From Asterella californica (Eukaryota > Streptophyta > Marchantiopsida > Marchantiales > Aytoniaceae): a stretch of DNA of 64,000 nucleotides. This document shows, piece after piece, positions 10,775 through 51,972 of the stretch (positions are counted from its first letter, which is position 1; the number at the start of each line of letters is the position of its first letter). A model generated the notes under the pieces. That model was given only the letters and a program-made list of their open reading frames with translations, was not told where the DNA came from and searched no databases. The stretch lies in assembly GCA_036924285.1 (NCBI GenBank), contig JAYKYS010000005.1, positions 868,001 to 932,000 of the forward strand. Reading direction: 5' to 3'. Both the position numbers and the translations under genes were made by a program.

Positions 10775-11193
10775 AGTAAAGGTTACCGTCTCCAAAGAAA
10801 ATCTGACGATCATACCTTCACCTCTCGTGATGTTATCTTTGATGAGTCCTCCCCGACTCTTCCTCCCACCTCCACCCCCTCTGCTGATCTCCCACTCACT
10901 CAAGCGTCTCCTGAGACCGACGTCCATTTTTATCATACTGTGCCCGCCCCTTCTGCTGGCCCAGCTTATGTCTCGCCCGTCTCTCCCGGTTTCCCTTCAG
11001 TGGGAGTTCCTCTACCATCTCCTGCCGGTCCAGCTCCAACCCCATCCGTTGGTCTTGGATCTGGAGGAGGAGTATCTAGCAGTCATGGCCCTGACGGAGG
11101 AGTCACCAGCAGTACACAGTCCAGTGGGAGCAGTCGCCCTCCACGTTCTCACTCCTCAAGCCATCACTCTCCCCCTGCAGAGAACTTGAGCTC

Positions 11194-19598: not shown

Positions 19599-19600
19599 TT

Positions 19601-20079
19601 GTGCGCATACACATCGCTACACAACATACATCGCTGTCAGAGGTACACCACACATACACATAACACATAGACTATGTCATACACATACGCAAGTGTCTCA
19701 CAATGATAAATCATATGTACTCACTCCACCATGTCAGCGGACACTAAACAATCACTAAAATCGAGTCAAATCCACTCTGTGCTCGCAGAGACTCCGGATT
19801 GCACTCACCAAGACTATCCACCATAGCTAGGAGCTTGAAGGCTCAAATTGAAGAACTAAGACTCCTATTGGGTCATCCCAAGAACTCGTCCTAACGACAC
19901 TAACGGCCCTACCGAAATTAGCCACTCCGCACTCGGTCAACCTAACCGAGGTGCTAAACTGATGTGACAGCCGTCGTGTGCATACACATCGCTACACAAG
20001 ATACATCATTGTCAGAGATAACCACACATACACATAACATATGGACGATGTCATACACATACACAAGTGTACCACAATC
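19601..20079 (-). repeat. Duplicated 104-bp terminal segment of Ty3-B
   Basis: Segments 19601-19704 and 19976-20079 are about 85-90% alike and lie 375 bp apart in direct orientation (GCATACACATCGCTACACAA and GATGTCATACACATAC are shared). On the minus strand a purine run AGGGGGGCG (20088-20080) precedes the second copy, like a polypurine tract before a 3' LTR. This may be the Ty3-B 3' LTR with an internal duplication, or two abutting LTR ends. Confidence 0.5.
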
Positions 20080-20229: not shown

Positions 20230-20578
20230 ATCTAATCATCTATCCTTGCTATATACATCAAGGACAAACCCACCGTCCAGTAAGAATAACATTGAGAGGT
20301 GAAGTCAAACATGACATGTGTCAACCTCTCGAATAACTATCACACACCAACATACGAGCTACTCCACCAGCAGACCCAAACAACATACACCTCAAGCCCG
20401 CACGTACAACTGCTAAGCTTGAGTCAACGGTCTCATCGATATAGAGACGATGACATGGCACGCAATTATGCATATGGTCCTTCCAAACAACACCATCACA
20501 GCCCTCTAACATGAGTACTCCAGAAGGTAACACCTCACACACTCGTAAAATAGTGCACCTTGCAATCACATCCAACGT
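20230..20578 (-). pseudogene. Ty3-B integrase end with PHD-finger-like module
   Basis: This frame continues the integrase that stops at 29287: LDVIARCTILRVCEVLPSGV and VVWKDHMHNCVPCH lie beyond the Ty3-C insertion. It then enters a PHD-like Cys/His pattern: GLRCMLFG, MLVCDSYSRG, a TGA where Trp is usual, HMSCLTSPL and GRWVCP. Compared with a PHD finger (C4-H-C3), two metal-binding Cys are replaced (Phe and Tyr) and the Trp codon is a stop, so this copy cannot fold normally. PHD fingers read histone H3 tails. In related plant elements such a module ends the integrase and probably guides insertion (inference). Confidence 0.7.
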
Positions 20579-21951
20579 TGTCGGAGTGTGATCCGTCTAC
20601 CTAGGAAAGCGCCGGGCTTCTGGCTGTGGTTGTTTACTCAAGAGGTTGGCTTTCAGGTCACAACAGGAGCTATAAACACTCACACAGGAGTGTAGGATCC
20701 TCTGATATGCTCAAAAAGCGAAATCTAGGTCTCACTGGTAGTAATAGGCTTAGGCGGTGAACTTTGACACACAAGGAGAGGAAAACTATGAAGGTTTAGA
20801 CTTCTAAACTTCCCCTACATGCAAATGAGGCACTACTGAACACACACACGAAGTTTCAGCCTGAGATCAAATTCTGACACGGAGATATGAACAGAAAAGT
20901 TCTGAATAAGAGAATTATGGCAATTTCTGGTACCTAGACAGCTATTCAGACATAGAACAGAGAATTGGCTCGATGAATTTCAAATCTTCTCACAGTATTT
21001 GAAGTCTACAGGATGCTGAACATCCCTGTGAAGTTGGGACTCCTGAATGTTTGTAGAACTCCAGATCTCCTTCTCTAAAGTCACTGCTCTAGATTAAGAG
21101 CTTTTCAGACCCCCTCTGCTTCAGCGGCCGCCCTGAATTACTCAGTTACTCAAATGATTCGAAACTTTTTGGACAGTCGTAGCCCTCCTGACAGTGAACG
21201 CAACCACGAAGTTTTGAAGTGATTTCCTCAATTCTGCTGCAATTGGCACCGAAAACCCCAAAATCAACAAAAGTGATGCAGTTTTGACACAATCCGAACT
21301 TCAATTGGGCATAACTCCTTGTTTATTGATCCAAATCGAGCAAAAATTTCACTGACAGTGCTTGGCACGACGAGCTCTCTCTTCCTGTGTTCTCAGATTT
21401 CGAAGATCCCCCACCAATTCTTCGAACTCTCCTCTAGAGCTCTATTTCTAAACTTAGAGTTTTACAAAAGACAAAAATGGACCAATGGGAGTTCATAGCT
21501 CCACTTGACTGTCCTTTTGTGCCTTAAACTACCTGGTAACTTATCTACACTCATAAGCTACCACGTCAAGCCCCCTAGAGTGCCAGCGTAAAACTTAAAC
21601 TACCTAAAATGACACATAGCCCTGAAAATTAACTTAAATTAGCTAGAAAGCGTGCATGGGCGACAAGTAAGTACAACCCATGAGCTCAAACCACTATCAG
21701 CATGGAAACCCTAAGTTATGTACATTGAACGTCATAGACAAGTAAGAAGTCACTTGCACAAGCGCACAAATGCTTGAACAAGATAACTAACATACTATCA
21801 GTCTACTAGGACTCAAAATAGTATTAACACCGTATGCAAAGGTGTCAAACATATATATAAAGGACTAGAAGTAGTATGAGCTAACTTCTAGAACTACCAA
21901 ACCTAAGCGTCGGAGTAGAAGTCAAGCATGTAGCCGCCAAATGGCGCGACA
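20579..21951 (-). repeat. Ty3-C 3' LTR
   Basis: 1373 bp, virtually identical to 27914-29286. On the minus strand a polypurine run AGAGGGGGTGGA (21963-21952) directly precedes it. Confidence 0.95.
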
Positions 21952-21999
21952 TCCACCCCCTCTGAACCTGCACATCCTCCGGTATGTGCCAGACCTAGA

Positions 22000-22419
22000 T
22001 CAAGACTCTTCAGCTTCAGCTTCAAATTCATCTTCAACCTCCATTGAGTCTTCAGCTTCATCCTCAGTAAGCTCTGCAATGTTCTGGTCCTCCCCTCTCC
22101 TTCTAAAGAGCTTGATTCTCTTCCCTGCGACTGGTATCTTGAGCACTGCACCATCTAACTCTCTCAAAGAGTATGTGGCATTATCATAAACTTCTAACAC
22201 CACATAAGGTCCGAACCATCTCTTGGAAAACTTTCTGATAGCGCTATGCTTATTATCAAGACTACTATCATAGACTAACACCCAATCACCTTCCTTAACT
22301 GGTTTGGGTCGAAATCTATGCGTTCTATCAAATCTGCCTTTGTGCTCTCTCTCTAGCAGTCTTTAACCTTTCCACAGCTTTGGCAACATCCTCAGGTCTT
22401 CGTTCTAACTGCTGGATCC
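22000..22419 (-). pseudogene. Ty3-C integrase C-terminal end
   Basis: The frame 22281-22000 holds VYDSSLDNKHSAIRKFSKRWFGPYVVLEVYDN, split here by the text limit only in description: the GPY-like block is RWFGPYVV. An acidic tail rich in Glu follows. The preceding segment (22419-22340) carries the helical linker QQLERRPEDVAKAVERLK in another frame. Two single-base indels, near 22447 and near 22343, are needed to explain the frame changes. There is no chromodomain. Confidence 0.75.
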
Positions 22420-23463
22420 TTAATGCAAGAAGATCCTCCGTACTTCTACCACTTCCCATGGCAAAACATTCCAAGTAGGCACAACCTCCTCAATCGGCAT
22501 CACAGGTTTTTGCCCTAGTATCAACTCTGCTGGCATGTAACCTGTAACGGTACTATGAGTTGTACGATCTGCCCACAAAGCAAATGGTAGCAGTCTAGGC
22601 CATTCACAGATCTTACCCTTGCAAGCTTTTACCAAAGCTTTGATGATTGGCGGATGACCTCTTTCGCTCTTGCCATTCCCTTCAGGATTGTAAGCAGTGG
22701 TTAACGCCAACTTGATTCCCAATCGCTTGAAGAACTCAACTGCTTCTTGTGCATCCAGCTCACCCCTATCTGCAGTGATCTTTCCCACACACCCATATCT
22801 ACAAATAACATCTTCAAGTAGAAAGCGGCAGACACTAGCAGTGGTCTTCGTCCTCAGAGCACGGCCTTCGACTTGGTTAGATAGATCTTCTCTAGCCAAG
22901 ACTAGATACCTCATTTGTCCAAGTCCAAATGGCATAGTTACCAGATCAACTACCCATTTGTAATGAATGGCTAAAGGATAAGTAGGATGCAATCCATCAC
23001 GATGACGTACGTTGGAATACATCTGGCAGGGTATACAAGATGAAACAAACTGTACTACATCCTTATACATACCCTTCCACCAATACTTTTCCTTCATCTT
23101 GGCAAATGTAGCCCAAACTCCTCTATGACCAGCCCATAAACTCTCATGGAACTCCTTGATCAGCTTCTGCTGCGATTCTAGGTCACATACCACCCGCTGC
23201 GGTATACCTCCTTGTAGCTTAGGGCGCTTCCATAGATGTCCTCCATGTAAAAAGTAACCATAAGCTATCCTACGGATCCTCTTGAAATTTGCATCAGACC
23301 AGCCTTCTTGCCTTTCCAGTGAACTCAAATAGCGCCCAAGATCCAACCACTCGCCAACATACATAGTTTCCTCAAAAAAACTCCAACGAGGCTGCAAAAC
23401 AGCTTCTATCTCTTCTAGCAAGAGCACTAGAATAGAACTCTGTTCCCACATCTTCCTGATCAT
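22420..23463 (-). CDS. Ty3-C integrase core
   Basis: A 347-codon frame with an intact zinc-binding HHCC (FHESLWAGHRGVWATF, then SSCIPCQMY). DDE catalytic residues lie in KWVVDLVTMP, ITADRGELD and EGNGKSERGH. It overlaps the end of the RT-RNase H frame. The switch between the two falls at a run of seven T (23380-23374), where one T fewer would give one continuous frame. It ends out of frame at 22420 through another indel. The integrase would insert element DNA into the host genome. Confidence 0.85.
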   Translation of the reverse strand: MIRKMWEQSSILVLLLEEIEAVLQPRWSFFEETMYVGEWLDLGRYLSSLERQEGWSDANFKRIRRIAYGYFLHGGHLWKRPKLQGGIPQRVVCDLESQQKLIKEFHESLWAGHRGVWATFAKMKEKYWWKGMYKDVVQFVSSCIPCQMYSNVRHRDGLHPTYPLAIHYKWVVDLVTMPFGLGQMRYLVLAREDLSNQVEGRALRTKTTASVCRFLLEDVICRYGCVGKITADRGELDAQEAVEFFKRLGIKLALTTAYNPEGNGKSERGHPPIIKALVKACKGKICEWPRLLPFALWADRTTHSTVTGYMPAELILGQKPVMPIEEVVPTWNVLPWEVVEVRRIFLH

Positions 23464-25513
23464 CTATCATTTCCTTCTCATCGTAATACCTAGCCCTTGA
23501 TAACATATCTGCCACAGGATTATCCTTCCCTGCAATATGTCTAAACTCTGGGTTCAAGGACTTGATATATGCTATCCACCTCAACATAGCAATATCTGGA
23601 GTTGTACAGCTAGTGATCATTCCCAAGAGAGGTAAACAATCTGTCTCCACAACCACAGGTGCTCCTATCAAGTATTCCTTATCACTCTTCATCGCAGTAA
23701 CTACTCCCCATAGCTCTCTCTTGACCTGAGGGTAGTCTCTCTGCCGTGAACTTAATACCTTAGCACCAAAACGCACCACATATCTATTTCCATCCTCATC
23801 GTCTTGTCCTACAGCCCATCCAATGCCAATAGGACTAGTATCAACAGTAAGGATAACAGATCTGCCCAACTCATATGTTACCTTCCGTAGAGTTGGTGGT
23901 GAAGCTAAAAGATCCTTCAACTTCCTCATAGACTCGCTTTGCTCCTCTTGCCACTGAAATCTTTGCCCCTTCCTCAGCAGCTTGTACAACGGATCTGCTA
24001 CATGTGCAAAGTGTGGAATCCATATATGATAAAACACACATGCACCTAGAAACCTTCTCACCTCAGTAACCGATCCACATGTCTCCTTCATCCTTCGGAT
24101 GGCATCAACCTTGTTTGGACAAGGTTTCCGACCATAAGATCCACACAGATGTCTCACTATTAACACCTCCTGTTCTCCAAATACAGACTTTGCTCCTGAT
24201 AAAGTCAAATGAACCTCCTCTTGTCGACTCAGTATCTTATCACAATCAGCTATGTGATCTGCAACAAACTTACGGCACCCCCTCTGATCCATTACCTCAT
24301 TCTTCTCCTCCTCAGCACACCCTTTGATCGGCACATCATCAAGGAATGGCATAGTTTTTTCAGGAATGAAATCCCTCAAAATTTTATTCATGCCATTCAT
24401 CATATGTGCTACAGAATTGGTAGCACCTTGTGGCAAGGTGCACATCCTTAGTAACCCCAAAGGTGTCCTCATTGTAGTCAAGTCTCTACTCTCAAAGGAT
24501 AACTGAAACTGATCGTAACCTGAATATAAGTCTCCCATTGAATAGATAGCACGACCAGCAAAAGCCTCTGCAAACTCGTCTACAATAGGTCCTATACCCA
24601 TATTCCTGATAGTCACCTTGTTAACTGGCTGCATATCTTGAATGAATCTCAAAGCTCCACTCTTCTTCGGAACAGTAAACCATCTGCTAGAATAGGGAGC
24701 TATGGATGGTTCCAAGATACCCATCCTAATCCTCTCATTGAGCAAGTCTATCAACTTCGGTAGATGAGCTCTAGGTACAAGGATAGGACGTAGATTCCAA
24801 GGCACATGCGGTATAGTAAAGATTACCATAGGTGCAACTACACTTGGATCTACACATCCTACTTCATGTGACTCAAACGCAAACGTCTTACCATGCCTAG
24901 ATAACATCTCCCTGAAGCTCTCCTTCTCTTGCTTAGTAAGAAATCCATCACCTCCAATCCTCAGGTCCTTCAGTGTTGTTTCTGTAAACTGGTGCCCAAT
25001 TCTTCTCGGCCCTCTAAGCGTCGGTTCTCGTGCAGCTTGCTCCATCTTCTGATTGTAATCGAGTGGCAAAGGCAAAGCCACTGGTTTGACTTTCTTTGCC
25101 ACTGACTTGTACTTGGTCTCCACATACACCTCTTGCCGATCTATAAACTTATCAATAACATCATAAAGCTCCTTGGAGCTCACTCTCACCACTCTATCTA
25201 CATCATCTGTAGAGCTTTCTAATATAGATTTCAACTCTCCTATAGTATCTACCAAATACTGCTCTTCAAACACTCCAGATATGTATTCATCTCCTGCTAA
25301 CTCTCCACTATCCCACAAAGATTGCTGTACATACTTCACATGTTGTTTCTCAAACCTCTTCAGATTCTCAACCTTCCTATAACACACTGATCCACATGAC
25401 GTCAATCCTAAGAAGCTAGTGGATAAAGCTTCCTGCTCTACTGGATCAGGCGAGAATCCTAGCTCTACTGTACCGTTGAAGTCTCGCTCTTCAATGGTAC
25501 TCTGCCAAAACCC
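23372..25513 (-). CDS. Ty3-C reverse transcriptase-RNase H (-1 frame)
   Basis: About 713 codons open from the slippery heptamer at 25513. A TAG in this frame lies immediately upstream, so entry must be by frameshift from gag. It shows the RT blocks WFTVPKKSGALRFIQDMQPV, MGDLYSGYDQFQLSF and CTLPQGATNS, and the catalytic FLDD box (MPFLDDVPIKGC). RNase H has VILTVDTSPIGIGWAV, KRELWGVVTAMK and ETDCLPLLGM, with DNPVADMLSRA at its end. The first Met is 36 codons after the heptamer. It ends at TGA 23374-23372, inside a seven-T run. Confidence 0.9.
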   Translation of the reverse strand, partial: GFWQSTIEERDFNGTVELGFSPDPVEQEALSTSFLGLTSCGSVCYRKVENLKRFEKQHVKYVQQSLWDSGELAGDEYISGVFEEQYLVDTIGELKSILESSTDDVDRVVRVSSKELYDVIDKFIDRQEVYVETKYKSVAKKVKPVALPLPLDYNQKMEQAAREPTLRGPRRIGHQFTETTLKDLRIGGDGFLTKQEKESFREMLSRHGKTFAFESHEVGCVDPSVVAPMVIFTIPHVPWNLRPILVPRAHLPKLIDLLNERIRMGILEPSIAPYSSRWFTVPKKSGALRFIQDMQPVNKVTIRNMGIGPIVDEFAEAFAGRAIYSMGDLYSGYDQFQLSFESRDLTTMRTPLGLLRMCTLPQGATNSVAHMMNGMNKILRDFIPEKTMPFLDDVPIKGCAEEEKNEVMDQRGCRKFVADHIADCDKILSRQEEVHLTLSGAKSVFGEQEVLIVRHLCGSYGRKPCPNKVDAIRRMKETCGSVTEVRRFLGACVFYHIWIPHFAHVADPLYKLLRKGQRFQWQEEQSESMRKLKDLLASPPTLRKVTYELGRSVILTVDTSPIGIGWAVGQDDEDGNRYVVRFGAKVLSSRQRDYPQVKRELWGVVTAMKSDKEYLIGAPVVVETDCLPLLGMITSCTTPDIAMLRWIAYIKSLNPEFRHIAGKDNPVADMLSRARYYDEKEMIDDQEDVGTEFYSSALARRDRSCFAASLEFF
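25450..25513 (-). promoter_or_regulatory. -1 ribosomal frameshift signal of Ty3-C
   Basis: Minus strand. Slippery heptamer G GGT TTT (25513-25507) in the gag frame, then a 6-nt spacer GGCAGA. Stem 1 has 5' arm 25500-25489 and 3' arm 25481-25470 (11 pairs, one A/C mismatch). The 7-nt loop is 25488-25482, and its GCGAGA (25487-25482) pairs perfectly with TCTCGC at 25555-25550 read as 25455-25450 on this strand (downstream side). The result is an H-type pseudoknot. The -1 frame has a stop just before the heptamer and is open after it; the gag TAG (25467-25465) lies just past stem 1. Confidence 0.88.
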
Positions 25514-27837
25514 CTAGACTCTCTAAACTCCTGAGTAATCTTAGGCAGTGGACGGTCTCTCAAGCTATCACGATTCCTCTCATGTTCTGCAGCAACGGTC
25601 AAAAACTGAACAGCTCTTTTGCCGTCTCTACTACGTATCCTAGCATAGGCTGAACCATCATCCATAACTCGTGTCTCCTTTCTAACAGCAGTAATGTAAG
25701 GCTGCCCTAGAATGATAGGATAGGTTGACATGTCTTGCACAAAGAAATTCTGAACATCACTGATGTCACCCACAGTTACCTTGATGTTGGGACAAGCACC
25801 ATAGAGTTCTCCCCTCTGGTTGTTGGCAGCACGGATAAGCCATCCATGATCGGTGTCTATGGGCCACCTCCCACGCTTGTACAGCTCCTTAGACATCAGA
25901 TTAATCTCTGAGCCATGATCAATCAACGCCACCACAGGTTCCTCTAGATCTCTCAGCTTCACTAAGGTCTCTGTGGTTGCTCTCGCCCAATGGTTGTGAG
26001 AATAATGGCTCTTCTGCGATGCTTCCACCTCATCTTCAAACCTCACGTGCTGATTTGATCTTCCCTCTGATACTTGAGAGCAGTAACCAGCAATCTCATC
26101 CTCCTCATCCTCCGACAGTTTGGTCCCTAGAGCGTTAAGCGTAGCTGCTTCACCCAAAATCTGACGTTTCCTCTTGATGATATCTATGATAACCTCATGG
26201 AACTCACGCTTTGCTATCCCAAGAATCTCACCCAAGGTAAACTCAACCTTCCCATTCAAGATACGATTCTCTAACACCTGCTTCAGGTCTGTAGCAATCT
26301 CAATATCAGACTGAAGTTTGTATGCAGGCATCTTACCCTTCTCCTTGCTTCTCTCCTTCTCCTTTGGTGTTGTAGGTGGTAGATCCTCCATAGTCTCTTC
26401 CCGAGTAGGTGTTGTCTCTTGCCTTGCCTCTGGTCTAGCCCTTTCACTCCTTGTAGCAGGTCGTTTGGCTGTAGAAGCCTCACCTGCATCCTCCCTCCTG
26501 CGTTTTTCTTCTAGTACAGCTTCATGCTGACTTCTTGCAACATAAGCATGCACTGACATAGTATCCACAGGGTCATTCCATCCTGTAGCTTCTCGAATTG
26601 AGTTGCCAACCCTTCGTAGCACATCCTTGTCTAGCTCTGTTCTAGCTACGGACCGCACTACATCAGACCACAACCCAGCAGTCCCTTTCTCTCTCTCCAT
26701 TTCCACTTTCACTCCACAGGTAGCAGCATTCACAAGAGAAACAGCATGTGATGCTGATATCTCATTCACAAGCCTCTTCATACCACCCTTGCCAAAGTTG
26801 GTTCCCAACATCATCCCAGTCTCTCTCAGATGGATCTTACCATCTTTGAAGAAGATCAGATCCTTCCTCAATGCATCTGAAAACTCCCCACAATCTCTTC
26901 TTACATGGTCTAGGCTATCACACCATATACAACGATGAACAAAGCCTTCTCTCATCTGAGGTCTCTGCATAGCAGGCTGTACATTCTGCTCCTTCTCTTC
27001 TAACCTAGTGAGCTTAAGCTTAAGCTCCTTCATACCCTTAATCAACTCATCAAGCGGTGAGTCTTCCTCTCTAGCAATTACCAAAGCGGGCTTAGTAGGC
27101 AACTGCTTGACAGGAATTATCAGAGGTGCTGCTTCACTTACCACCACCTTGTCCCTTCTTCTCTGTCTCTTGGCCAGCAAAGAAACAGCCTCTTCAACCT
27201 CCTTCCAGTCAGTCTTCAATCCTCTCTCCTCACTCTTGTCTTCCAACAACAGCTCAAGCTTTTCCTGAATAGTCACGTCCGCTGCTTGTAGGAAAAGCTC
27301 TGTCTTCTCCACCTCTAGTGTAAGCTTTTCTGTCCTAGAAAGCTGAGCATACTGACGATCAAACTCCCTTAACAACTCATTTACAGACAAACCTTTGTTA
27401 GGCTTCACCACCCACTCCAAGAATGTTCTCTTGGTCACCCTCTCTGAGTCTTCAGTGTAGTACTCTTCCTTCAAAGCTCGCATAAAGCTCTCCCAACTCT
27501 GTCCTTGCTGCTGCTTGAGCTCCTTCACACGCCCACGAATCTCAGGGACAACAGCAAGTTCAAAGTTCTCCACCATCTCCTTCTCAGGTACCTTGTTCAC
27601 CTCCATCTCCCTAGCATAGTATCGCACATACTTGGAAATATCTGTACCCTTGAACTGGTCCATCTGGTGCACCACAGATTGCAACGCCTTGGTTGCTAAC
27701 ACCTCCTTCCTCTCTGTGCTCTGCTGCTGCTGCATGAACATGGAAAAAGCTTGGAACATCTTCATCGTAGCAGCATCAAACTGAATAGGTTGCTGAGCAG
27801 CAGCAGCACCCCCACTTGATGATCCTTGGTTGGCCAT
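25465..27837 (-). CDS. Ty3-C Gag-protease polyprotein
   Basis: 790 codons, intact. Residues 1-40 are a Gly/Ala/Gln-rich leader. A Gag capsid-like region spans about 45-200 (DISKYVRYYAREMEV, WESFMRALKEEY). A charged coiled-coil-like stretch lies at about 265-285, and a perfect CX2CX4HX4C knuckle at 303-316 (CIWCDSLDHVRRDC). A Lys/Glu/Arg-rich linker is followed by a retropepsin domain with its active site at about 638-643 (LIDHGSEINLM), Asp-His-Gly in place of Asp-Ser/Thr-Gly, and IILGQPYI later. Protease is therefore translated together with Gag, before the frameshift. The start ATG is 77 nt inside the 5' LTR, the first good start after it. Confidence 0.92.
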   Translation of the reverse strand: MANQGSSSGGAAAAQQPIQFDAATMKMFQAFSMFMQQQQSTERKEVLATKALQSVVHQMDQFKGTDISKYVRYYAREMEVNKVPEKEMVENFELAVVPEIRGRVKELKQQQGQSWESFMRALKEEYYTEDSERVTKRTFLEWVVKPNKGLSVNELLREFDRQYAQLSRTEKLTLEVEKTELFLQAADVTIQEKLELLLEDKSEERGLKTDWKEVEEAVSLLAKRQRRRDKVVVSEAAPLIIPVKQLPTKPALVIAREEDSPLDELIKGMKELKLKLTRLEEKEQNVQPAMQRPQMREGFVHRCIWCDSLDHVRRDCGEFSDALRKDLIFFKDGKIHLRETGMMLGTNFGKGGMKRLVNEISASHAVSLVNAATCGVKVEMEREKGTAGLWSDVVRSVARTELDKDVLRRVGNSIREATGWNDPVDTMSVHAYVARSQHEAVLEEKRRREDAGEASTAKRPATRSERARPEARQETTPTREETMEDLPPTTPKEKERSKEKGKMPAYKLQSDIEIATDLKQVLENRILNGKVEFTLGEILGIAKREFHEVIIDIIKRKRQILGEAATLNALGTKLSEDEEDEIAGYCSQVSEGRSNQHVRFEDEVEASQKSHYSHNHWARATTETLVKLRDLEEPVVALIDHGSEINLMSKELYKRGRWPIDTDHGWLIRAANNQRGELYGACPNIKVTVGDISDVQNFFVQDMSTYPIILGQPYITAVRKETRVMDDGSAYARIRSRDGKRAVQFLTVAAEHERNRDSLRDRPLPKITQEFRESRGFGRVPLKSETSTVQ

Positions 27838-27913
27838 GATATCTGATCCTGTAACACTCTCAAGAAAACTCCCACCCTAGGTGTTTCACGTCGAGTTCAC
27901 CAAAAAGAGAGTA

Positions 27914-29286
27914 TGTCGGAGTGTGATCCGTCTACCTAGGAAAGCGCCGGGCTTCTGGCTGTGGTTGTTTACTCAAGAGGTTGGCTTTCAGGTCACAACA
28001 GGAGCTATAAACACTCACACAGGAGTGTAGGATCCTCTGATATGCTCAAAAAGCGAAATCTAGGTCTCACTGGTAGTAATAGGCTTAGGCGGTGAACTTT
28101 GACACACAAGGAGAGGAAAACTATGAAGGTTTAGACTTCTAAACTTCCCCTACATGCAAATGAGGCACTACTGAACACATACACGAAGTTTCAGCCTGAG
28201 ATCAAATTCTGACACGGAGATATGAACAGAAAAGTTCTGAATAAGAGAATTATGGCAATTTCTGGTACCTAGACAGCTATTCAGACATAGAACAGAGAAT
28301 TGGCTCGATGAATTTCAAATCTTCTCACAGTATTTGAAGTCTACAGGATGCTGAACATCCCTGTGAAGTTGGGACTCCTGAATGTTTGTAGAACTCCAGA
28401 TCTCCTTCTCTAAAGTCGCTGCTCTAGATTAAGAGCTTTTCAGACCCCCTCTGCTTCAGCGGCCGCCCTGAATTACTCAGTTACTCAAATGATTCGAAAC
28501 TTTTTGGACAGTCGTAGCCCTCCTGACAGTGAACGCAACCACGAAGTTTTGAAGTGATTTCCTCAATTCTGCTGCAATTGGCACCGAAAACCCCAAAATC
28601 AACAAAAGTGATGCAGTTTTGACACAATCCGAACTTCAATTGGGCATAACTCCTTGTTTATTGATCCAAATCGAGCAAAAATTTCACTGACAGTGCTTGG
28701 CACGACGAGCTCTCTCTTCCTGTGTTCTCAGATTTCGAAGATCCCCCACCAATTCTTCGAACTCTCCTCTAGAGCTCTATTTCTAAACTTAGAGTTTTAC
28801 AAAAGACAAAAATGGACCAATGGGAGTTCATAGCTCCACTTGACTGTCCTTTTGTGCCTTAAACTACCTGGTAACTTATCTACACTCATAAGCTACCACG
28901 TCAAGCCCCCTAGAGTGCCAGCGTAAAACTTAAACTACCTAAAATGACACATAGCCCTGAAAATTAACTTAAATTAGCTAGAAAGCGTGCATGGGCGACA
29001 AGTAAGTACAACCCATGAGCTCAAACCACTATCAGCATGGAAACCCTAAGTTATGTACATTGAACGTCATAGACAAGTAAGAAGTCACTTGCACAAGCGC
29101 ACAAATGCTTGAACAAGATAACTAACATACTATCAGTCTACTAGGACTCAAAATAGTATTAACACCGTATGCAAAGGTGTCAAACATATATATAAAGGAC
29201 TAGAAGTAGTATGAGCTAACTTCTAGAACTACCAAACCTAAGCGTCGGAGTAGAAGTCAAGCATGTAGCCGCCAAATGGCGCGACA
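27914..29286 (-). repeat. Ty3-C 5' LTR
   Basis: 1373 bp; differs from the partner at about two sites (near 28180 and 28418). Inside the element on the minus strand, a TGG-starting sequence (TGGTGAACTCGACGTG) about 10 nt from the LTR is a possible primer-binding site; the tRNA is not identified. Confidence 0.95.
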
Positions 29287-30115
29287 ACGTCATCGGTGCA
29301 ATCTGCTGTAGATAGATATAATCGTCAGGATGAAACCTACGAATCGATGACTGATAACCTCCTCCTCGAATAGTCGCATATCGCAATGTATCTCTATGCT
29401 GAGCAATCGCTAGGTTCTCAAAAGTCATAGGTATAACTCTCCGAAATATCTCTACTCGTTGAGAACATGCATTCACCCACATATTCGAGTCATCAAGGTT
29501 CAGCACCTCAGTAGAATCACGACGAATGGCTGAAGATAGATCTGGATCTCGGCCATACAATAGAAAATACGGTGAGAAGGAACCAAAAGACGCTTGTCGA
29601 CTAAATGATAGCCCATAACCAACCATGGTAACTGCACATCCCAATCTCCCAAATGGTCCTTATGCAAGCCATACTTACGCAATCCTCTCTCCACCGTTTG
29701 AACTATCCTCTCCGCCAAACCATCCGTCTCAAGATGATCTCGAGATGTAGTCCGATGATCAATCAGCACCTGATCACACAAGGCTTGAAACTCACCAAGA
29801 AACTCTGTACCTTGGTCCGTCAGCACTTCAGATGGTGCTCCAAAATGACTCAGCATTCGATCTAAGAATGCATACGTCGTCCCTTCACTCGTCTTGTCCG
29901 GTAATACCACCAACTCAATCCACTTGGAGAAGTGCTCCACCATCACCAACACATACCGGTGATGACGTATGGTCAATGGTAAGGGTCCCGCAAAATTCAA
30001 ACTCCAACGATAACCCAACCTCATAATCGATAAGGGGTGTAACTGTGGAGTAGGAGCATTAAATGATGCTCGTACTCGATCACAAACCACACATCGTGCG
30101 ACAAACTACTGCACA
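29287..30115 (-). pseudogene. Ty3-B integrase core
   Basis: Fragments include the second half of the zinc motif (ARCVVCDRV) and catalytic blocks WSLNFAGPLP, LTDQGTEFLGEF and DGLAERIVQTVERGL. The first catalytic Asp is replaced by Asn here. It continues with FSPYFLLYGRDPDL and DDYIYLQQIAPMT, and is cut at 29287 by the Ty3-C LTR. The rest of the protein is at 20578-20230. At least one frameshift (near 29500-29640) is present. Confidence 0.85.
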
Positions 30116-30639
30116 TCGATGTGCATACCAGCCACCAATATTGTCCTTGGAGTAAGCTATGTGTACGCTTCATCCCAAAATGTCTCAACTCCTCATGGGC
30201 ATGTCGTACTAACTGCGTCCTTGGGATGGATGTGACACTATTTGTACTCTCTCATCATCTCACACTCGAAGTACATGTCGTCCTTCTCGTCGCAATCTCT
30301 TCGCTCGTTGACACGATCTCGCTCCTTGACGCTTACTGTGCCTACCACCACGCTAGTACTAGATACTCCATTACGGTCACATTGTCGTGGATATCTCGCT
30401 GGTCTGAAACACCATCTCCATCCTCAAGATCCGGAGACTCGTCATCTACTCTCTGACTTGAGAAAGATAAGACCTAGTCCTCCATACTAGAGTTCATGAC
30501 CAACACACAAAGAAAGATAGATGCATGCCACCCTAGCACTATCTCCTCATCAACCACGTCATGCCATCGAGCCCTAGTCTGATCCTGCTGACTCGTGCAT
30601 GAGTTGCGACTCAATCCATCGGCATCTAGGTTTGCAACT

Positions 30640-31814
30640 CCAGGTTATGAATTACATGGAAGTCATACTCCTGTAAGATAAGAGCCCATCATGCAAGCTT
30701 CCATGTAAGCTTGTCGGAATCCATCAACCACTTGAGCGATTGGTGATCAGTGATGAGAGTAAAAGGGTTCTCAAACAGATAACATCGAAAGTGTGCAACA
30801 GCTCACATTGCCGTCAAGCACTCTCTCTCAAACGAACTATATCTCACTTCCGTCGAATTGTTGAAGCGACTGGCATACGTCACCATGAACTCTTTTTTCT
30901 CATCATCATGCTGAGTCAGCACTGCTCCAAGTCCTAACATACTCCAATCACTATGCAGTTGAAAAGGACGCCCCCTAACGTGTCTCCTCAAGATGGGAGC
31001 AGATGTCAACTTATCCTTGAGCTCTACAAAAGCTCGCTCTTGTTCATCTCTCCATTGCTACTCTTGGTCCACCTTCATCAGCTTGGTCAATGGCTTCGCA
31101 ATTGCACTAAACCCTTTCACGTATCGACGATAAAAGTTTGTCAAACCAACAAATGTCCAAACTCGACTCACATCTGTAGGACGTGGGATACGTGCGATAG
31201 CTTCAACCTTCGTCTGTTGAACACCCAATCCACCTGGGTAGATGGTGTGGCCCAGATACTTTACCAACTTCTGAAAGAACTTGCACGGTTGAGAGCTCAG
31301 GGTGTAACTTCAACCCATGAGCTCTCAACCGCTCGAACACATCCCGTAAGTGTCTCTCGTGCTCCTCCACTGTAGCTCTATAGACTAAGATGTCGTCAAT
31401 ATCACATCTGACAAAATCCAATCCTGCTAGGATTCTATCCATCACCCTTTGGAACTCAGCAGAGACGTTCTTCAACCCAAATGATAAGAACCGCCACTGA
31501 TACAAACAATCCTTGCCGTGAGAGTCAATTCCCTTGAGTGTTGTCTTAGACTTATCTTCTTTTCTCACCGGCAACTGATGACACCCTGCTCGAAGATCTA
31601 AAGTATTGAAGATTTTCACATGCCCCACTGCATCAAAGATCTCCTCAAGTGTCGGCATGGCATACTTATCGGACTTTGTCTGCCGATTGATAAGACGGTA
31701 GTCTCCACACGTGTGCCTATCCGTGCAGTTGTCATACATATCTTTCTTTGCTGGCATAACTGTGGCAGATGCATACTCTTCGTGCGACATCTCCATCAAT
31801 CCAACCTCCAACAA
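30640..31814 (-). pseudogene. Ty3-B reverse transcriptase and RNase H
   Basis: The first frame (31814-31300) carries ASATVMPAKKD, HTCGDYRLINRQT and FNTLDLRAGCHQLPV; the fingers block is QWRFLSFGLKNVSAEF and the catalytic box is IDDILVYR. A frameshift at a local inverted duplication (31286-31331) leads to a second frame with VKYLGHTIYPGGLGV and GLTNFYRRYVKGFSAI (thumb). A third segment (31009-30803) is the RNase H start with HSDWSMLGLGAVLTQHD and YSSFERECLTAM. The fingers motif is altered from the usual MPFGLxNAP. Confidence 0.85.
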
Positions 31815-32339
31815 GTCTTAAGTCCTACTCTGAATCAAGGCTCTCTCCATGTCATTGTATCTGTAAGGACGTCGAAAGTTTGGCGTGTCATTAGTCAAGT
31901 CGATCAGTATACCATGTCCCTCTCAAGGTACCCAAATCCTTCATACTGAAGGCAAAACAATTCTTGTAGCTCTTCAAATCTCTGAACTCTTCGTCTCTCC
32001 TCTCTTCTTCGTCTCTCCTCTCCTATAAGCTTGGGTCCAATCTATGGCTCTCAAGTATCCTCTGTCCCCATGCTAGAGGTAGAAGACGAAGTCATTGACT
32101 GCTATCTTGCAGCCTTTGGAGCAGTTTCTTTTTACTCACCACCAACAACCTCCACCGCCACTGTGCAAAAAACTCTTGCAGTCCTAGCTGCAAGTTCCAC
32201 ACTCTCTCCTATGACATCTCTTGATGTCCAAGGATGACAAACTTCACACACCTCGCCCCCAGCCTTTGTCTCCACCGACTCGATAGACAAAGAGCTCAGA
32301 AGTGTCCAAGCAGTAACACCTGTCGATCGCATCCGACGC

Positions 32340-33310
32340 TGCTCAGTCAATCCAAGGTAACAATCCATGTCAAGCAATTTAAATCCATTGCTTGATCCAA
32401 TATTTGACGATGTGAAGCCTCCGACACCGAAGCTATTGCCGTCGTATCCGTAGAGGAACCCATCGTTCTCTCTCTCTCTCATCGACATTGAGCTCCACCA
32501 ACTGTTGTAATCGAGCATCCCACACAAGCCCGGGTCCTCCATCTCTATAAGCATGTGACGCTGGAAAGCTCATCAAAGTGGACAACGCTGCCATGAGTCG
32601 TCTCACTAGGTTCACCATTGTCATAGGTGACTTATCGACGACTCTCATTACTTGAGATTGTCGTCTTACATCCAAGATGTCATCAACTGTGAGGTGCACT
32701 GATCGTCTCACTATCATGTGCGTGCTTTGAGCACCTCTCTTTGTATCAAGTTGTCCACCACAACCGTGGATGATGTGCATGAGATCCCTCTCTCGCTGCA
32801 TCCAACAGCACTGTCGGTCCGACCCAAGATCGCACCTGATGCACGCTCGTCATCATCTGTGTACGAGCATCACTCAACAAAAGAACGTTCTCCAAGATGT
32901 ACGTTGGAGAATCCACCTGATGCATCTGGAGATGTCGTAAGATCCATAACATCTCTCAGAACATCTTAGATCGCGGGTCATGTAAACCTTGACCTCTCTC
33001 ATCACGCATGTGACCTTGACATGACCACCCGACTATCACCAAGTGAATGATGTCAACAAACGTGAGATCATGCTCCCCCAACAGCGGAATATTTGACAGT
33101 AATGCTTGCTGGTATCTTATAACAGCTGATATGGACAACAACTCAAGATATCTCTACATCAAACGCGCCACATGACGCCCATGAGATGCATCTCGCAACC
33201 TCATCTCTCTCACATACAAGTATCGTTGTACTTATATGCTTGCCTACAATATTGTAGCCAAACCTGTGTTGATCGCTCCAAATAGCTCCAGCACACACAC
33301 ACCCTCCTCT
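32340..33310 (-). pseudogene. Cytosine-5 DNA methyltransferase domain in Ty3-B
   Basis: Minus-strand frames between protease and RT show the ordered motifs of a C5 DNA methyltransferase. Motif I (SAM binding) is VLELFGAINTGLATIL at about 33293-33243. Motif IV is HLVIVGWSCQGHMR near 33040-33007, with the catalytic Cys kept but the preceding Pro changed to Ser. DPRSKMF follows. Motif VI is YILENV near 32900, then LLSDARTQ; motif VIII is HPRLWWTT near 32750. The target-recognition side has LTVDDILDV and MSFPASHAYRDGGPGLVWD. A motif X-like end is ELNVDERERER and, after a frameshift, LLDMDCYLGLTEQRR. At least three stops and three frameshifts break it. Retrotransposon-borne methyltransferases of this class are known in charophytes and dinoflagellates (recollection). 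The expected role is methylation of element or host DNA. Confidence 0.85.
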
Positions 33311-33419
33311 GGATATTATCATACAATGGAAGTCGTATCCAACGGTGATAAGGTCACAAGGCCAGTAGTAGGAATAACCCTTTATTCCTCTACTGTGGTG
33401 CAAAGGCTTCATTCCAAGC

Positions 33420-34060
33420 CTACTGCACCAACCGATCAGCATATTGCTGCAACTCTCCACTCGAACTCCATAGTGGAACATCTAAGGCAGATGGTACTAA
33501 CGTAGACATGCTAGGCATGTCCTCCACCTCCTCAAAGACCAAAGTATCCTCCGCATGAGCATTGCCTTCTAACAACTTGTCCGACCAAGTGATGACCAAA
33601 CTGAATCCTGCAACGGATGTCATCGTCTCTGGTGTAGGCTCCTTGTCCCAACTCTAGCACTGAACCGCACTGGTAAGCGGCTCACTCGTCCCTCACCAGA
33701 CTACCAACCTAGTATGTAAGATGTTGTCTCCGTTCAATATTCGGTCACGAACTCCATAAGATATAACACAACACCTCCAACCAATACATCATAAGACTTC
33801 GCGGTCGTAACGATGGTCTTGGCCCTCACCATGGAGTCATCCGTGAGGTGATCTAGTCAAACTCTCATCGTCAACATCTCGCGTGTCATGTGTAGAGCTG
33901 TACCTCATGATCCTCTTAGAAATGTTTGTAGTTGAAATGAACATCTCTCCACCTCGGACTTCCTCAAACCCAAACCAATGCACGTCACCTTCTCCAACAT
34001 CAACGATTGGGCTCTAGAGTCTAACAAGACTTTTTGTGGTCGATAGACCTTCCCTGAAGA
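33420..34060 (-). pseudogene. Ty3-B protease and linker
   Basis: The minus strand reads PQKVLLDSRAQSLMLEKV near 34045-33990, a retropepsin active site with D-S-R-A where D-S-G-A is expected. KTIVTTAKSYDVLVGGVVLY follows, the usual second half of the fold. A linker frame (33623-33420) with VAGFSLVITWSDKLLEGN and LDVPLWSSSGELQQYADRL leads towards the methyltransferase domain. Several stops are present. Confidence 0.7.
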
Positions 34061-34499
34061 TTTCACCAAAAAAAAATATCACTTTTGTTGTCTAACAACA
34101 TCACACTTGATGCCAAACCAGCACGATAACTCATCTAACATGGCAGTCGCCGCTTGCCAAGTACCACTGGTAGTTGTCTTGATCTTCGACTTCATGGACA
34201 CATCTACAGTCTCGCGCTGAACCACCTCAGCACTAGAGGTAACTACATCCTCGATCTCACTGAGCATGGCCGGCCAGCTGGAACACTAGAGCCAAGCTGA
34301 CTCGCAATGCCTTCATATCCATGGCTGAAAATAGTGGGGCTCGAAAAACTGCTATAGTCGTCTTCAATATCGGGTTCGACGTCGCATCCACAGACGTCGA
34401 GGATTGTCTCGCATCACCCCCACTCCTGGATGTCGATGTCTCTAACTCCACTGCATCATCGGTAGGCCGTTTAGGCACCATAGACGTAGTACTCAACGC

Positions 34500-36181
34500 C
34501 TCCGATAATGTGAATGACTGAGGAAACCTAGCCTATCTATCAGCCTCTCGGTGTTGTGGATCAACTCCACCGACGCACCTCGTGGCTCAGAGATACGTAC
34601 TGCACCCTTAGTCACGACCGTAGATGTCTCAATCTGCGCCACACCAGCCATGAAGTCGAAGTCAACTCCTTCTCCTCCATAAAACGTGGAAGCCTTTGTT
34701 TCACCAGATCTCCGTTGAGCCATAGCCATACTAGCTATGCTATGCTCCAACTGCTCAATCCGAACAGCTGTACCTACTTCTGACGTTGTAGCAGACGGTG
34801 GACCGACTGATCTTCTCTCAAGTGCTGGACCTCTAGCTCCAGCTCGACCACCACGGCCTCCTACACCAGCTCCTCCGCCTCGTCCACGATCAGCTTTCTC
34901 TTGTCTTAGCTCGAGGTGGAAATCAAAACAACGATCACTACTATGACCTGGTCGTCCGCAATGCTCACACTACGTAGGCACCTCTTGAGACGTCTCAGAC
35001 GTCTCATAACCACCTCTCCTCTGTAGACAGTCCTTCTGCTGATGAAGATCATCACACGTCCAGCAAAGACCCACTTGTTGCTCACTAGAGAAGGACGGCA
35101 TGAGCTTCTACCCACCAGATCCTCCAACACCTCCTTGGGATCGTGACTGTTCAGCACGATCCTTACCACCACCACCACTACCACCACGAGGTTGAGCAGC
35201 TTGTGATCCTTGAGAAGAGGTGGTCGTCCCATGTGGTGTCTCCCTGCTGAACCCAACCACCACCACCCTCTCCTCCATCATGTTGAGCTCAATCCGCTCA
35301 GCTAGACGTCGGAACGGAGTCTCTAAGGAGAGTTGTATCCTTGACTCTCATACACAACTCTCTGTCTAATATCCCATACCAGAACTGGGCTGCATGTGCT
35401 TCCATCACCCCTTGGATAACACTGATCAACCGTCTCATGCGAGTAAACGCCTCGTGTATGCTCTCTCTAGTCTTCCGCTGAAACTCCTGCAGACTCCACA
35501 ACTTGTCAATCCGTACACCCTGATGTTCTTCCTCATACATTGGAAGAACTGGACCACATGGTTAAACCCTGGTGGTATCCCGTTCACACTACCACCTGCT
35601 CCACTACTAGTGGACGCACCACTGGTAGTAGGTACTATGCCACTCGTGGATGTACCACTGCTACTGGCACCCAAACTCGCAAGTGCTACGCCTCCCAAAA
35701 CTGCGTTAGTAGTGATAGAAACATAGTTGGGAGACCAATGTTGTCTCCACAACTCAATCTCCACACTGTAGTCTCGCTTGAACTCATGATAATCGTCCAT
35801 CGACGGTCCTTCCAAGTGTTGGAAATCCTTCCACGCCATGAAGGATGTAAACAGCTGTAGGTTCCACATTTACTGCAGATCACATCAACTGTCGAACTCT
35901 TGGATGAAGTCGTCCAACTCAATAGTACCCACTGTACTTGAGTATCGTCGAGGCCCCTTCGTGGTCTCATATATCTCGTCCATGTCTCACAACAACGGTG
36001 TGGCGACACTAGACTCACCATCAGAAAATGTATTATCTGCGTCTGACTCGTCCTCTGGAACTATCGACGATAATGGTGTAGGTAGTCGGTACCTCATCCC
36101 ACTCCGTGTATATCCACTGTCCGAGAAGTCTCCATCAGAACCTCCCGAGAACTCCGTGATGATAGAATCTTGATAACACAT
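34500..36181 (-). pseudogene. Ty3-B Gag
   Basis: Frames on the minus strand include an acidic N-terminus (DGDFSDSGYTRSG), then MAWKDFQHLEGPSMDDYHEF and WRQHWSPNYVSI, a Ser/Thr/Gly-rich linker, and a capsid-like block (RTRESIHEAFTRMRRLISV, AAQFWYGILDRELCMRVKD). Two Cys-rich stretches near 35060 and 34970 look like zinc knuckles (CWTCDDLHQQKDC and CEHCGRPGHSSDRC). A Gly/Arg/Ala-rich part follows. Frames shift several times. Confidence 0.75.
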
Positions 36182-36886
36182 TCTCCAACCAGAATGTCAA
36201 AATCTCCGTCATCACCATAACCACCACTTGTCTAACCCCGCTCCTACTGAACTCACTTATCCTTTACTAGGACGATCAAGGTAAGGGCAACTTGTATCTG
36301 TCATCACCACAGGCAATCTCTCATGATCTGTTGATCGTCAATCCAACCGCATCGTGAGATAAACAAAAGTAGTCTGATTGGTCCGCAACTCCAACCTCAC
36401 TATCGACAGCATACAGGAGGGAACTCACTCTAGAAATCAAACGCCAACACAAGCAAACGCGATGCACAAACAAGAAGCAGAATATGGAGGGGTTTCAACC
36501 ACAAGAAGTCCAAACGATAACCCTCCACACTCAAACATTCACATAGAAACCCAACCCCACCTGAACTGACGTCTCCTCTTCGATGATCACATGCACGATA
36601 TATGATCATCAACTGTCGTAACTGGTACTTAAGGTCACTAACTAGATGTCCACACCTCTAGTACCTCCAAAAATATCTAAGTGGTAGCTCTACTAGCTCA
36701 CCCAAGACAGTTGTCATCAACTGCCTCCATACACGTCTCTACTGTATATGCAAACACTACCACAACTATAGCTTTCCTCTAATACTGTGGGGTCGTCCTA
36801 CCACTCCTCTAGGAAGTGCGAGAATGTCTCTTACTACCTTAAACAAGTCCATAAGTACTTGCACGCATCCCTAGAAGACACCAAGA
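36182..36886. other. Ty3-B leader or terminal repeat, no coding seen
   Basis: The region upstream of Gag in Ty3-B orientation. It should hold the 5' LTR and leader, but I could not match it to the left end of the element. Short ORFs here look like chance. Confidence 0.4.
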
Positions 36887-36985
36887 GCTATTGATCTAGT
36901 GGTAAAGCCAAAGCTAAGACTGCAGAGTTAAGTGTGCAAGTCCATGAATAGTGTTGAGATCGGTGACCTGCTGGTTTTACACTTC
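36887..36985 (+). repeat. Possible tRNA-derived SINE fragment
   Basis: The sequence TTGATCTAGTGGTAAAGCC resembles a Pol III box A (tRNA D-arm). GTGCAAGTCCATG about 50 nt later occupies a box B-like position but matches poorly. It lies near the right end of Ty3-B. A SINE or tRNA fragment is possible; the evidence is weak. Confidence 0.3.
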
Positions 36986-37061
36986 CCACACAACTGAAAC
37001 TTGCATACCTCTCTCACGCACGCTAGCAAGTTGGCTTGCGGCGGACGCAAAGAACAAACTG

Positions 37062-42115: not shown

Positions 42116-43923
42116 GCAGAGAACACTGTAGGCTAGTCCACGTGGAGCATACCATAGAGTATATTCAACAGTATCGTGACATTGTGTAACGGGTGAATGT
42201 GGAGTTCTCTTAGAGTCTTGAGAGTCGCGGGGTGGGTAAAGAAACGTCCCCTCGGACCGTGAGCCTCGCAGGGATGGATCGTTTTTACCAAGTCGATGCG
42301 CGGTAAAAATAGTTGTAATAAAGCATTCGTCGGCTGTCAGCTTCTGTCGTTCGATTGATCTTCTGTCTGATCTCTATCCTGGAAAAGTACGAACGAGCGA
42401 ACGATAGAAGGGAAGGGAAAGTTGGAGTGGGGGAGCGAAAGGAGCAGACGAAGCAGAGCTAAGCCAAGACGAAGAATAGGAAAGAGAAGGGATGGGGACA
42501 GGAATGGATGGATGGGACGCGCGCGACGTATTCTGCGGGATGTTTGAGAATCCATCAGAAGAGTGGCGAGAGGGTTGTTGACCTGCTGTGCCTTCTGCTG
42601 CCACTTATGCCGCTGTGCCTGCTACATGCCGTCGAAGCCATCTCCTGCAGAGTAATCCGAAGGTTTCTTCATTATAGTGGTCTAGTTGCTGTGCGAGCAA
42701 TCAGGGTGAGACGGCTGGCTATCTATCGCGTCGAGGGCAGAGGGCTTGGGGCGGAACCCTTGACTTCTTCATTAATTCACAGGTAGAGGAAGGTGAACAG
42801 GAACGGTCGACTGCGACTCTTACGATATTAAGGAATAAGGAGAAATCGGTGCCGCGTGTGGGACCAGTTTGCCACTGCCTGCAGCTCCTCTTTCATGCTG
42901 GTGATGGAGAGATTTGCACTGGTGCGCTTGAAACTCTGGTTCTCCTTGGGGTCTGCGTCTTAGATATTGGCGTAGTGTAGCGAGAGATCGTGACCAGCTG
43001 GAATGTAGAGTTTACATGAGCGGAAGTGCTAGCTCCGTGTCAAATATGTTTTGAACTGCTGATGGAGTATGGTGGCCGTAACTAGATCGAAGGAACTCTG
43101 ATCGGAGGTTGAGTTAGTTCTATCTTGAGAGGGAGAGGGAGGGGAATTTGTTTCAAGGATTTTGTTCTGAGAGGTTCTTGTCTTTGTTAAGCGGGAGCAT
43201 GTCTGGTTGTATGTCCATTACGTCGTGCACAATGGAAGCCGAAAGTATGTGAATTTGGAGGAGAGAAATGATCTCGGCTTTATCAGAGAGTGGACTCGTC
43301 TGCCTTCTCAAGCCAACAAACCAGGTTTCCCAGAGGTTCATTGACAACCGGACAGCTGCACTATTTAGGTCAGTGGTTTTAGAGACAGACATTGTTCTTT
43401 GTTCCGGCCCCGGAGGTCGGTTGTCCAAGAAGAGTACATTAGGGTTTAGGTTGTCTAGATCTGTGATCTGTGCTTAGACTGCGCCAAAGTTTTGTTTCAT
43501 TGGTCACCAGACGTATGGGATTCTGGGACTTGTGAAGGCACATCTTAGACAGAACCCTACGTTACGACATCGTGCTCGATTAGCTTATCGGACACCGCGG
43601 CACTCACTTCTGGTTGTTCGTATGCTCTTCGATTTCGTCTTGACCCACATTATATTCTAAGACGGGACGATGGTGCAGGTAGTCGATAACTACAGGCCGG
43701 GGCAGGAGATTGGACCTGATGATTAGGTCGTAGGAGGAAAGTGGTTGTTGATTGTTCGGTTACTCGCTCCTCAGTACACACTTGCTGAAGGCTAGCGCAT
43801 TGTCAGGTTGGCCCAAATTGGTCGTGGACTTCCACGTTAAAGTAGAGTCGACGGAGCGGCTTCGTCGGGGCAATTGGTCAGACCTAGTTTTCTCACCAGG
43901 GGGTAAGGTCATTCGTGGATACG
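42116..43923 (+). other. Upstream region of the host gene
   Basis: Less AT-rich than the preceding block. It probably holds the promoter and 5' untranslated exon(s) of the gene starting at 43924. No TATA box or start site could be assigned, and short ORFs here (for example 42508-42786) have no domain. Confidence 0.4.
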
Positions 43924-51406: not shown

Positions 51407-51972
51407 ATGAAACTCTAAGAGAGCGGATTACTCCTCTTAGAAGGACCTTTGATCGAGGTACCTAGCAATTGGAACTCTGAGTGCGCTGAAAGGATCAAGA
51501 GAGCTATGTGATGGATGGGGGTAGATTTCCAGCTCCAGAATTACCATTCTTGAATACTTTTTTTTATGTATATGCGTCGAGAGCATTTTCGAGTGTATCT
51601 TGTTTATCATTTCGGTGAAGATTTCATGGGTCAAGTGATGAATTCACCAGTCCCGGTGATTCTTCCAGTAGTGACATATGCAGCTAGTTGGGATTTGACC
51701 GTCTACATCTTGATTTAGTGAGCATGGATCTAAACCTACCCGCTCCTGTTCCCTTCAACACGTGGGTGGAGATCCGCTATGTCTGCAGACCGAAATCGTT
51801 ACATAGAGAGTTTGTGATTAGAAATTTTGGTGAGGATTTCTACTGCGAGATAATTGATTCTCTTGTCCCTTTTGTAGTACCTGTAGTATACGAACGTTTC
51901 CGAGTGGCCGTCATAACTCTGTACTAGGAGAAGCTTGAAACTTACGTGTCGTAAGAGAGAGAGAGAGCGATC

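Follow-up and report, generated by a model that had tools for sequence, protein, structure and literature searches.

Chromoviruses, the chromodomain gypsy elements, carry a histone reader at the C-terminus of the integrase, and the Ty3-gypsy element REM1 of Chlamydomonas reportedly has a PHD finger, which is said to lie with a chromodomain in a separate inverted open reading frame (ORF) and to be accompanied by no methyltransferase. A gypsy element with a DNA-methylating enzyme was described from Klebsormidium nitens: according to the accessible text of de Mendoza et al. 2018 (PMC5890265), KnitGypsy-Dnmt3 combines Gypsy domains, an intron-less C5 cytosine methyltransferase (MT) of the Dnmt3 class under purifying selection, and DIRS-like repeats. 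The same text describes the retrotransposon-borne C5 MTs SymbioDIRS-Dnmt3 and SymbioLINE-Dnmt of Symbiodinium, the former also with two domain orders, and the available part of a 2025 survey (PMC12344493) repeats 'streptophytes and dinoflagellates' as the range. In-frame stop codons between two ORFs occur in SIRE1 of soybean, murine leukaemia virus (MuLV) and tobacco mosaic virus (TMV), followed in TMV by CAR-YYA (PMC2194720, as far as its text was available). Here we describe a Ty3/gypsy-type family, one decayed copy of which (the relic) lies on the minus strand of a 64,000-nucleotide stretch of Asterella californica DNA (contig JAYKYS010000005.1, positions 868,001 to 932,000; the window). 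Taking anatomy and enzyme class together, this family almost certainly encodes a Dnmt3-class MT, which forms the final domain of the Gag-protease ORF.

The histone reader of the Asterella family is a PHD finger, unlike the chromodomain of chromoviruses, and the element is gypsy-type with a DDE integrase, unlike the DIRS (tyrosine recombinase) and LINE elements of Symbiodinium. In SIRE1, MuLV and TMV the stop divides gag/pol, pol/env or replicase parts, whereas the Asterella stop puts the MT on the abundant Gag side. KnitGypsy-Dnmt3 is alike in that it, too, is a gypsy element that carries a Dnmt3 MT and has DIRS-like terminal repeats; however, its MT is described as part of the Pol polyprotein ORF and its copies as fewer, from one charophyte (PMC5890265, available text), whereas the Asterella MT lies in the Gag-protease ORF upstream of UAG-CAR-YYA, in a family with many copies and a PHD finger after the integrase. 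The terms PHD, readthrough and Marchantia do not occur in the text of PMC5890265 that was available, and a literature search that left subscription journals largely out of reach yielded no report of a PHD finger, a leaky stop, a Gag-side MT position or bryophyte copies. Known before, then, were gypsy elements with Dnmt3 and DIRS-like repeats in Klebsormidium; apparently new are the PHD finger, the predicted leaky stop, the Gag-side MT and the bryophyte copies.

The genome (516.7 Mb) was searched with PF00145, and 123 of 1250 candidate places were scored, all 123 exceeding the cut-off. Twenty-eight of these lie in frames that stay open for 1000 aa or more, including 16 in frames of 1367–1381 aa, and at least three are host genes: a DNMT3-like gene (L026), 44–47% identical to Diphasiastrum, Sphagnum and Marchantia proteins, and two DRM genes (L027 and L028). 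With 1.1 kb from the MT region of the intact copy L021 as DNA query, 2570 candidate places came up, and the 40 that were scored all had 99–100% identity. The family is evidently large and still young. Seventeen copies (L009–L025), selected by an MT match in long frames, were opened. ORF1, whole in 15 of them (1367–1381 aa; the remaining two have 1281 and 1149 aa), encodes a zinc-knuckle Gag, a protease that bears DSGAQ and, last, the MT. ORF2 (1038–1041 aa, whole in 9 of 17) follows in the same frame, with exactly one stop codon between them. In L021, ORF2 encodes reverse transcriptase (RT), RNase H, integrase (H2C2 and rve) and, at the C-terminus, a PHD finger (PF00628, E 6.7e-11); the MT of this copy matches PF00145 with E 1.2e-8, and its protease, which has no Pfam match, was identified by the DSGAQ motif, plus PF13650 in some relatives.

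The order Gag-protease-RT-RNase H-integrase, the gypsy-type RT and the DDE integrase are those of Ty3/gypsy elements. Identical long terminal repeats (LTRs) at both ends were not found; the repeats are split as A (294 bp), coding region, B (108 bp), A, B, with both L021 pairs 100% identical, and B-A-B stands on the 3' side in 14 of the 17 stretches and in the relic (20078–19597). L021 ends in TGTC...GACA with the 4-bp target-site duplication ACCG, and in L023, the other copy for which both flanks were compared, three of four duplicated bases agree. A G-rich tract just before B1 in L021 is read as the polypurine primer. A Pfam scan of both L021 ORFs gave the rve integrase and no PF00589, the tyrosine recombinase expected of a DIRS element.

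Motifs I, IV, VI, VIII and X of the family MT stand in linear order with the catalytic Cys, Glu and Arg; the host DRM genes, by contrast, are rearranged. The closest solved relatives by both sequence and fold are DNMT3, with DNMT2-type chains far weaker (E 0.005–0.17). The MT is evidently a Dnmt3-class C5 enzyme, with putative de novo DNA methylation activity. In intact family copies the MT is evidently under purifying selection, with catalytic residues retained. The ORF1 set for dN/dS comprised 16 of the 17 copies (L011 was dropped by a motif filter), and the ORF2 set, limited to frames of at least 1000 aa beginning QSTTSSS, left out 8 of the 17.

The C4HC3 pattern is kept in all 19 PHD fingers compared (17 proteins with a located finger, L021 and the relative L063), and the nearest solved fingers include KMT2C, CHD4, DPF2, KDM5B and PHF21A. 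Readers of trimethylated lysine 4 hold a cage Trp at one position. Because this position is Gly in 18 of the 19 family fingers and Ala in one, the finger is predicted to be a reader of H3 unmethylated at lysine 4 (H3K4me0). That mark is the one read by the ADD domain of DNMT3 (PMC11021467, available part).

In the explanation that we favour, and consider fairly probable as a whole, most ribosomes would halt at the UAG, giving Gag-protease-MT as the major product, and a minority would read through to the full polyprotein. The MT would thus be packed in particles at Gag dose beside RT, where cDNA arises, and would methylate the cDNA of its own element, either ahead of integration or during it; the PHD finger would steer the integrase to chromatin without H3K4 methylation, the active mark, and the new copy would arrive already marked, in suitable chromatin. 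As to its parts, integration targeting through the PHD finger is about an even call, and methylation of element cDNA by the MT falls a shade short of that. A stronger version, which is doubtful, would make the element a self-contained writer-reader, whose Gag-dose MT marks cDNA before integration, perhaps at non-CG sites, whose integrase PHD reads H3K4me0, and whose copies enter pre-silenced and tolerated; if true, the parasite would have rebuilt the pairing of ADD and catalytic domain of cellular DNMT3.

For a parasite to carry a DNA-methylating enzyme where bulk production with the coat protein is expected would be an unusual handling of a mark normally used to silence parasites, and the puzzle of a parasite-borne enzyme of the silencing class has been open since 2018. 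The family makes this question concrete and testable: a known leaky-stop signal with the MT on its Gag side predicts many MT copies per particle and a cDNA substrate, and a histone reader on the integrase predicts the target chromatin state. Since the model plant Marchantia has relatives among its deposited gene models, such tests would need no exotic organism, and Marchantia methyltransferase gene counts may be inflated by element-borne models.

Several points weigh against the favoured explanation. The relative P0035 has the same domain order in a single ORF without a stop, which means that not every element has the gate; a clear dip in divergence at the UAG is lacking in young pairs; and of four RNA folds computed 3' of the UAG, that of the relic alone stands out (z −2.3; the other three, z −1.0, −1.2 and −0.5, are unremarkable). 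The relic MT by itself is a weak match (E 0.27), and, as the opened copies were selected by MT match and long frame, the frequency of MT loss is not readable from them. A footprint of CG self-methylation was sought in the family mutations and not seen, the signal being strongest in CHG, with CG not above CHH in the relic. The dinoflagellate DIRS Dnmt3 enzymes, moreover, methylated CG, and the Klebsormidium enzyme was without activity on DNA in yeast, a result that its authors call inconclusive (PMC5890265, available text).

That the MT acts on RNA, or serves the particle chiefly by binding nucleic acid rather than by marking DNA, would suit its fusion to Gag downstream of the zinc knuckles, where genomic RNA is expected, as well as the footprint without CG preference. 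De Mendoza et al. raised the possibility of an RNA substrate for the LINE-borne enzymes, and the yeast result, inconclusive in their own view, would also fit (PMC5890265, available text). The DNMT3-class DNA MTs that are nearest by sequence and fold, the much weaker DNMT2-type matches and the retained catalytic residues nevertheless argue for a DNA substrate, and we consider an RNA or binding role unlikely.

The mutations themselves bear on a further possibility, that the MT damps its own family, integrated copies being methylated so that the host tolerates them. C-to-T (on either strand) makes up 343 of the 459 derived changes of the relic (CHG 113/615, CG 55/567, CHH 175/2015, compared with 41/2962 for A-to-G plus T-to-C) and 238 of 337 singletons in 11 young copies (CHG 78/7236, CG 51/7008, CHH 109/24941; six of the 17 copies were left out of this count), as expected of methylated DNA. 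In L009, L014 and L025 the C-to-T counts were CHG 59/1900, CG 35/1826 and CHH 128/6749, and the 3.9-kb subset of the relic that was tested showed an excess over CHH for CHG (p 3e-6) but not for CG (p 0.5). The copies therefore look methylated with a non-CG emphasis, alike for a host or a self origin: host enzymes could equally cause the CHG excess, and DRM and DNMT3-like genes are present in the host genome itself. With the family young and abundant, and with the footprint measured in this one repeat family and no other as control, self-damping appears rather improbable. By trinucleotide, C-to-T peaks in CCG and is lowest in CAT in the relic (29295–36204 of the window), older and young copies (L009–L025) alike, with CTG second in the relic; the dependence on context is steep.

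A search for relatives scored 7998 candidates, and 54 proteins passed E 0.01. Labels among them were Marchantia polymorpha (15, up to 76% identity) and, once each, Sphagnum fallax, Closterium sp. NIES-53 and a Minisyncoccia metagenome-assembled genome; none was labelled Klebsormidium, most carried no organism label, and KnitGypsy-Dnmt3 is compared here by description only. The relative labelled as a Minisyncoccia bacterium is P0051. A search of IMG/VR with alignment A1 gave 30 loci with short matches of 26–51%. Two main domain orders were found. Type 1 (Gag-protease-MT-RT-RNase H-integrase-PHD) is that of the Asterella family, L063 and P0035, and of the Marchantia, Sphagnum and Closterium relatives as far as their models extend; type 2 (RT-RNase H-MT-integrase-PHD) is seen for example in P0037–P0040, P0042 and P0043, and P0058 reads MT-RT-RNase H-integrase. 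The catalytic PC motif has Glu for Pro (WECQ, PECK) in 11 of 32 retrotransposon MTs, 8 of them type 2 (P0035, P0036, P0038, P0045, P0047–P0053); these still keep the Cys, ENV and the motif VIII Arg.

The two positions of the MT in the polyprotein could mean that types 1 and 2 acquired MTs independently from related donors, and two captures were reported for dinoflagellate DIRS elements (PMC5890265, available text). In the RT tree, however, the 18 MT-bearing rows separate from three other gypsy elements of the window (99/98), and type 2 forms a clade in this tree (98/95) as well as in the MT tree (99/94; 30 of 34 rows, with the partial P0015, P0031, P0045 and P0054 dropped). An earlier, sequence-only reading of the window had proposed an MT tree with DNMT3, CMT, DNMT1, DRM and bacterial enzymes. 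Built with cellular and bacterial-type DNMT3 rows, and with DNMT1, CMT and DRM not among them, such a tree joined the 19 retrotransposon MTs tested (19 of the above 30) in one clade (100/99) on a long branch, apart from the eukaryotic DNMT3 and bacterial-type rows; its outgroups are limited and its long branches were flagged. Because the retrotransposon MTs form one clade, and type 2 a clade in both trees, one capture and one relocation suffice, and the simplest reading of the trees is a single MT capture with one later shift of position; independent captures seem correspondingly unlikely.

The ORF1/ORF2 junction reads UAG CAG TCA in 18 of 18 cases (17 copies and the relic), which is the TMV-type context UAG-CAR-YYA between two in-frame ORFs. 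The context recurs in L063, a type-1 relative whose ORF1 ends in UAG CAA TCA and is followed in frame by a 1047-aa ORF2 with RT, RNase H, integrase and PHD finger; as the MT of L063 is only 50% identical, UAG-CAR-YYA is conserved over deep divergence. The L063 contig (CADCWO010000201.1) is binned as an uncultured Synechococcales cyanobacterium, and we infer eukaryotic contamination of that bin; with a 57-bp overlap between its ends, the contig closes into a circle, the behaviour expected of collapsed repeats. CAR-YYA alone suffices for TMV readthrough (PMC2194720), and readthrough of the TMV motif was measured in planta at 32% (PMC2754532), both according to the available parts of these sources. 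In the 120 bases around the stop, third-position divergence of three older copies from L021 was 2.5%, compared with 4–25% in the other intervals. In the 70 codons ahead of the UAG (L021 5709–5918 and equivalents), pS was 0.018, compared with 0.086–0.095 in the rest of the measured ORF1, and pooled dN/dS was 1.6, which looks like constraint acting on the RNA and not on the protein.

The UAG could instead be an ordinary stop, with the RT ORF reached via splicing or reinitiation and CAR-YYA inherited without function. Seven protein models (P0007, P0011, P0014, P0016, P0017, P0031 and P0054) extend into later domains, possibly through predicted splicing, and the Marchantia models P0007, P0011, P0014 and P0017 join MT to RT by a shorter spacer, as if spliced over the stop. 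Yet both post-stop codons fit the consensus in two lineages (chance about 1 in 512 per site, over six bases), both ORFs remain in one frame, and sixteen further relatives end 68–128 residues past the MT, before RT (P0005, P0006, P0008, P0019–P0030 and P0033; as protein models, they do not tell a stop from a contig end). An ordinary stop is thus quite improbable, and UAG-CAR-YYA is very probably a leaky stop at which readthrough is predicted.

In the window, L021 aligns piecewise to positions 36169–29285 of the minus strand at 85–91% DNA identity. All parts of the relic lie on this strand, and the identities that follow are those to L021 DNA. A remnant of the 5' untranslated region (36174–37048; blastn with a piece of L021, 87.7% over 880 bp) precedes decayed Gag with zinc knuckles (34127–36169, 86.8%, with stops and frame breaks) and a decayed retropepsin-type protease (33543–34132, 84.8%); the 5' repeat A1 was not found at the relic. 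The decayed Dnmt3-class C5 MT with a short C-terminal tail (32105–33538, 88.4%, core motifs from 33293 down) terminates at the in-frame UAG (32104–32102) that separates Gag-protease-MT from RT, and CAGTCA (32101–32096), which fits CAR-YYA, comes next. From the UAG on, decayed RT and RNase H (30639–32104, RVT_1 E 3.6e-17, 89.9%) lead into the decayed first part of the integrase with its zinc-binding region and DDE core (29285–30638, 91.5%). Here, at 29284/20585, a separate LTR retrotransposon, younger than the methylase element and foreign to it, is nested in the integrase gene and splits the relic (20585–29284, minus strand, 1365-bp LTRs 99.85% identical). The relic resumes at 20584–19597 with the last part of the integrase (20465–20584, 90.8%), the decayed C-terminal PHD finger region (20252–20464, 89.7%) and the terminal repeats B1 (19973–20078; 92.5% to L021 B and 87.9% to relic B2), A2 (19761–19969; 72.9% to L021 A) and B2, the element end (19597–19704; 92.6% to L021 B).

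Read from 33293 down with stops as X, the relic MT had PF00145 as its sole Pfam match (E 0.27, below the family cut-off) in the hidden Markov model check that the sequence-only reading had suggested; an NCBIfam scan of the piece gave no match, and the best solved relatives were DNMT3A chains (E 0.19). Four proteins came up in a protein search (E 4e-61 to 2e-33), and a precomputed PF00145 match is on record for two of them. Compared with that of L021, the relic MT shows 58% identity along 362 residues of a frame broken by 13 stops, with further pieces in two other frames, and the MT of the Marchantia relative P0005 scored 227 bits against it, compared with 23.9 for the best of 200 dinucleotide-preserving shuffles. 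Relatives, intact copies and shuffles together bear out the C5 MT identity that the earlier reading had assigned; its motif order (I, IV, VI, VIII and towards X on the minus strand) agrees with the window sequence, stops and frame breaks bear out its view of a dead copy, and the intact genome copies that it had asked for were found. Its suggestion that the MT may mark the element's own copies stays a hypothesis, host enzymes being an equal explanation of the CHG excess. It was right that a Ty3 element carries the MT between protease and RT, although the coordinates it gave for these flanks did not hold (the protease piece is 34132–33543 and the RT domain runs from 31922), and it missed that the MT belongs to the Gag-protease ORF, upstream of the conserved UAG-CAR-YYA and outside the RT ORF, as well as the PHD finger at the integrase end and the split terminal repeats.

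Three further candidates were rejected: a chance motif match, by the shuffles; a separate nested insertion, which the earlier reading had named as a possible refutation, by the single open Gag-protease-MT frame in 15 of the 17 opened copies (chosen for carrying the MT, with MT-less copies outside the sample) and by the same order in other species; and a retrocopy of a present host gene, as the genome's own DNMT3-like and DRM genes differ.

Other mobile elements of the window were identified by eye from the ORF list. They are a gypsy element (2208–6494, minus strand), a copia-like element (9582–12996, plus strand), a gypsy element with a chromodomain-like end (51955–56525, plus strand) and a hAT-like transposase (60796–62838, minus strand). 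The interior of the nested LTR element (22000–28000) is strongly depleted in CpG, with observed/expected 0.37 compared with 0.72–0.88 in the ten other stretches of the window that were measured. A 755-aa open frame on the plus strand (43888–46155), rich in simple sequence and with an N-terminal membrane-like stretch, is a possible host gene.
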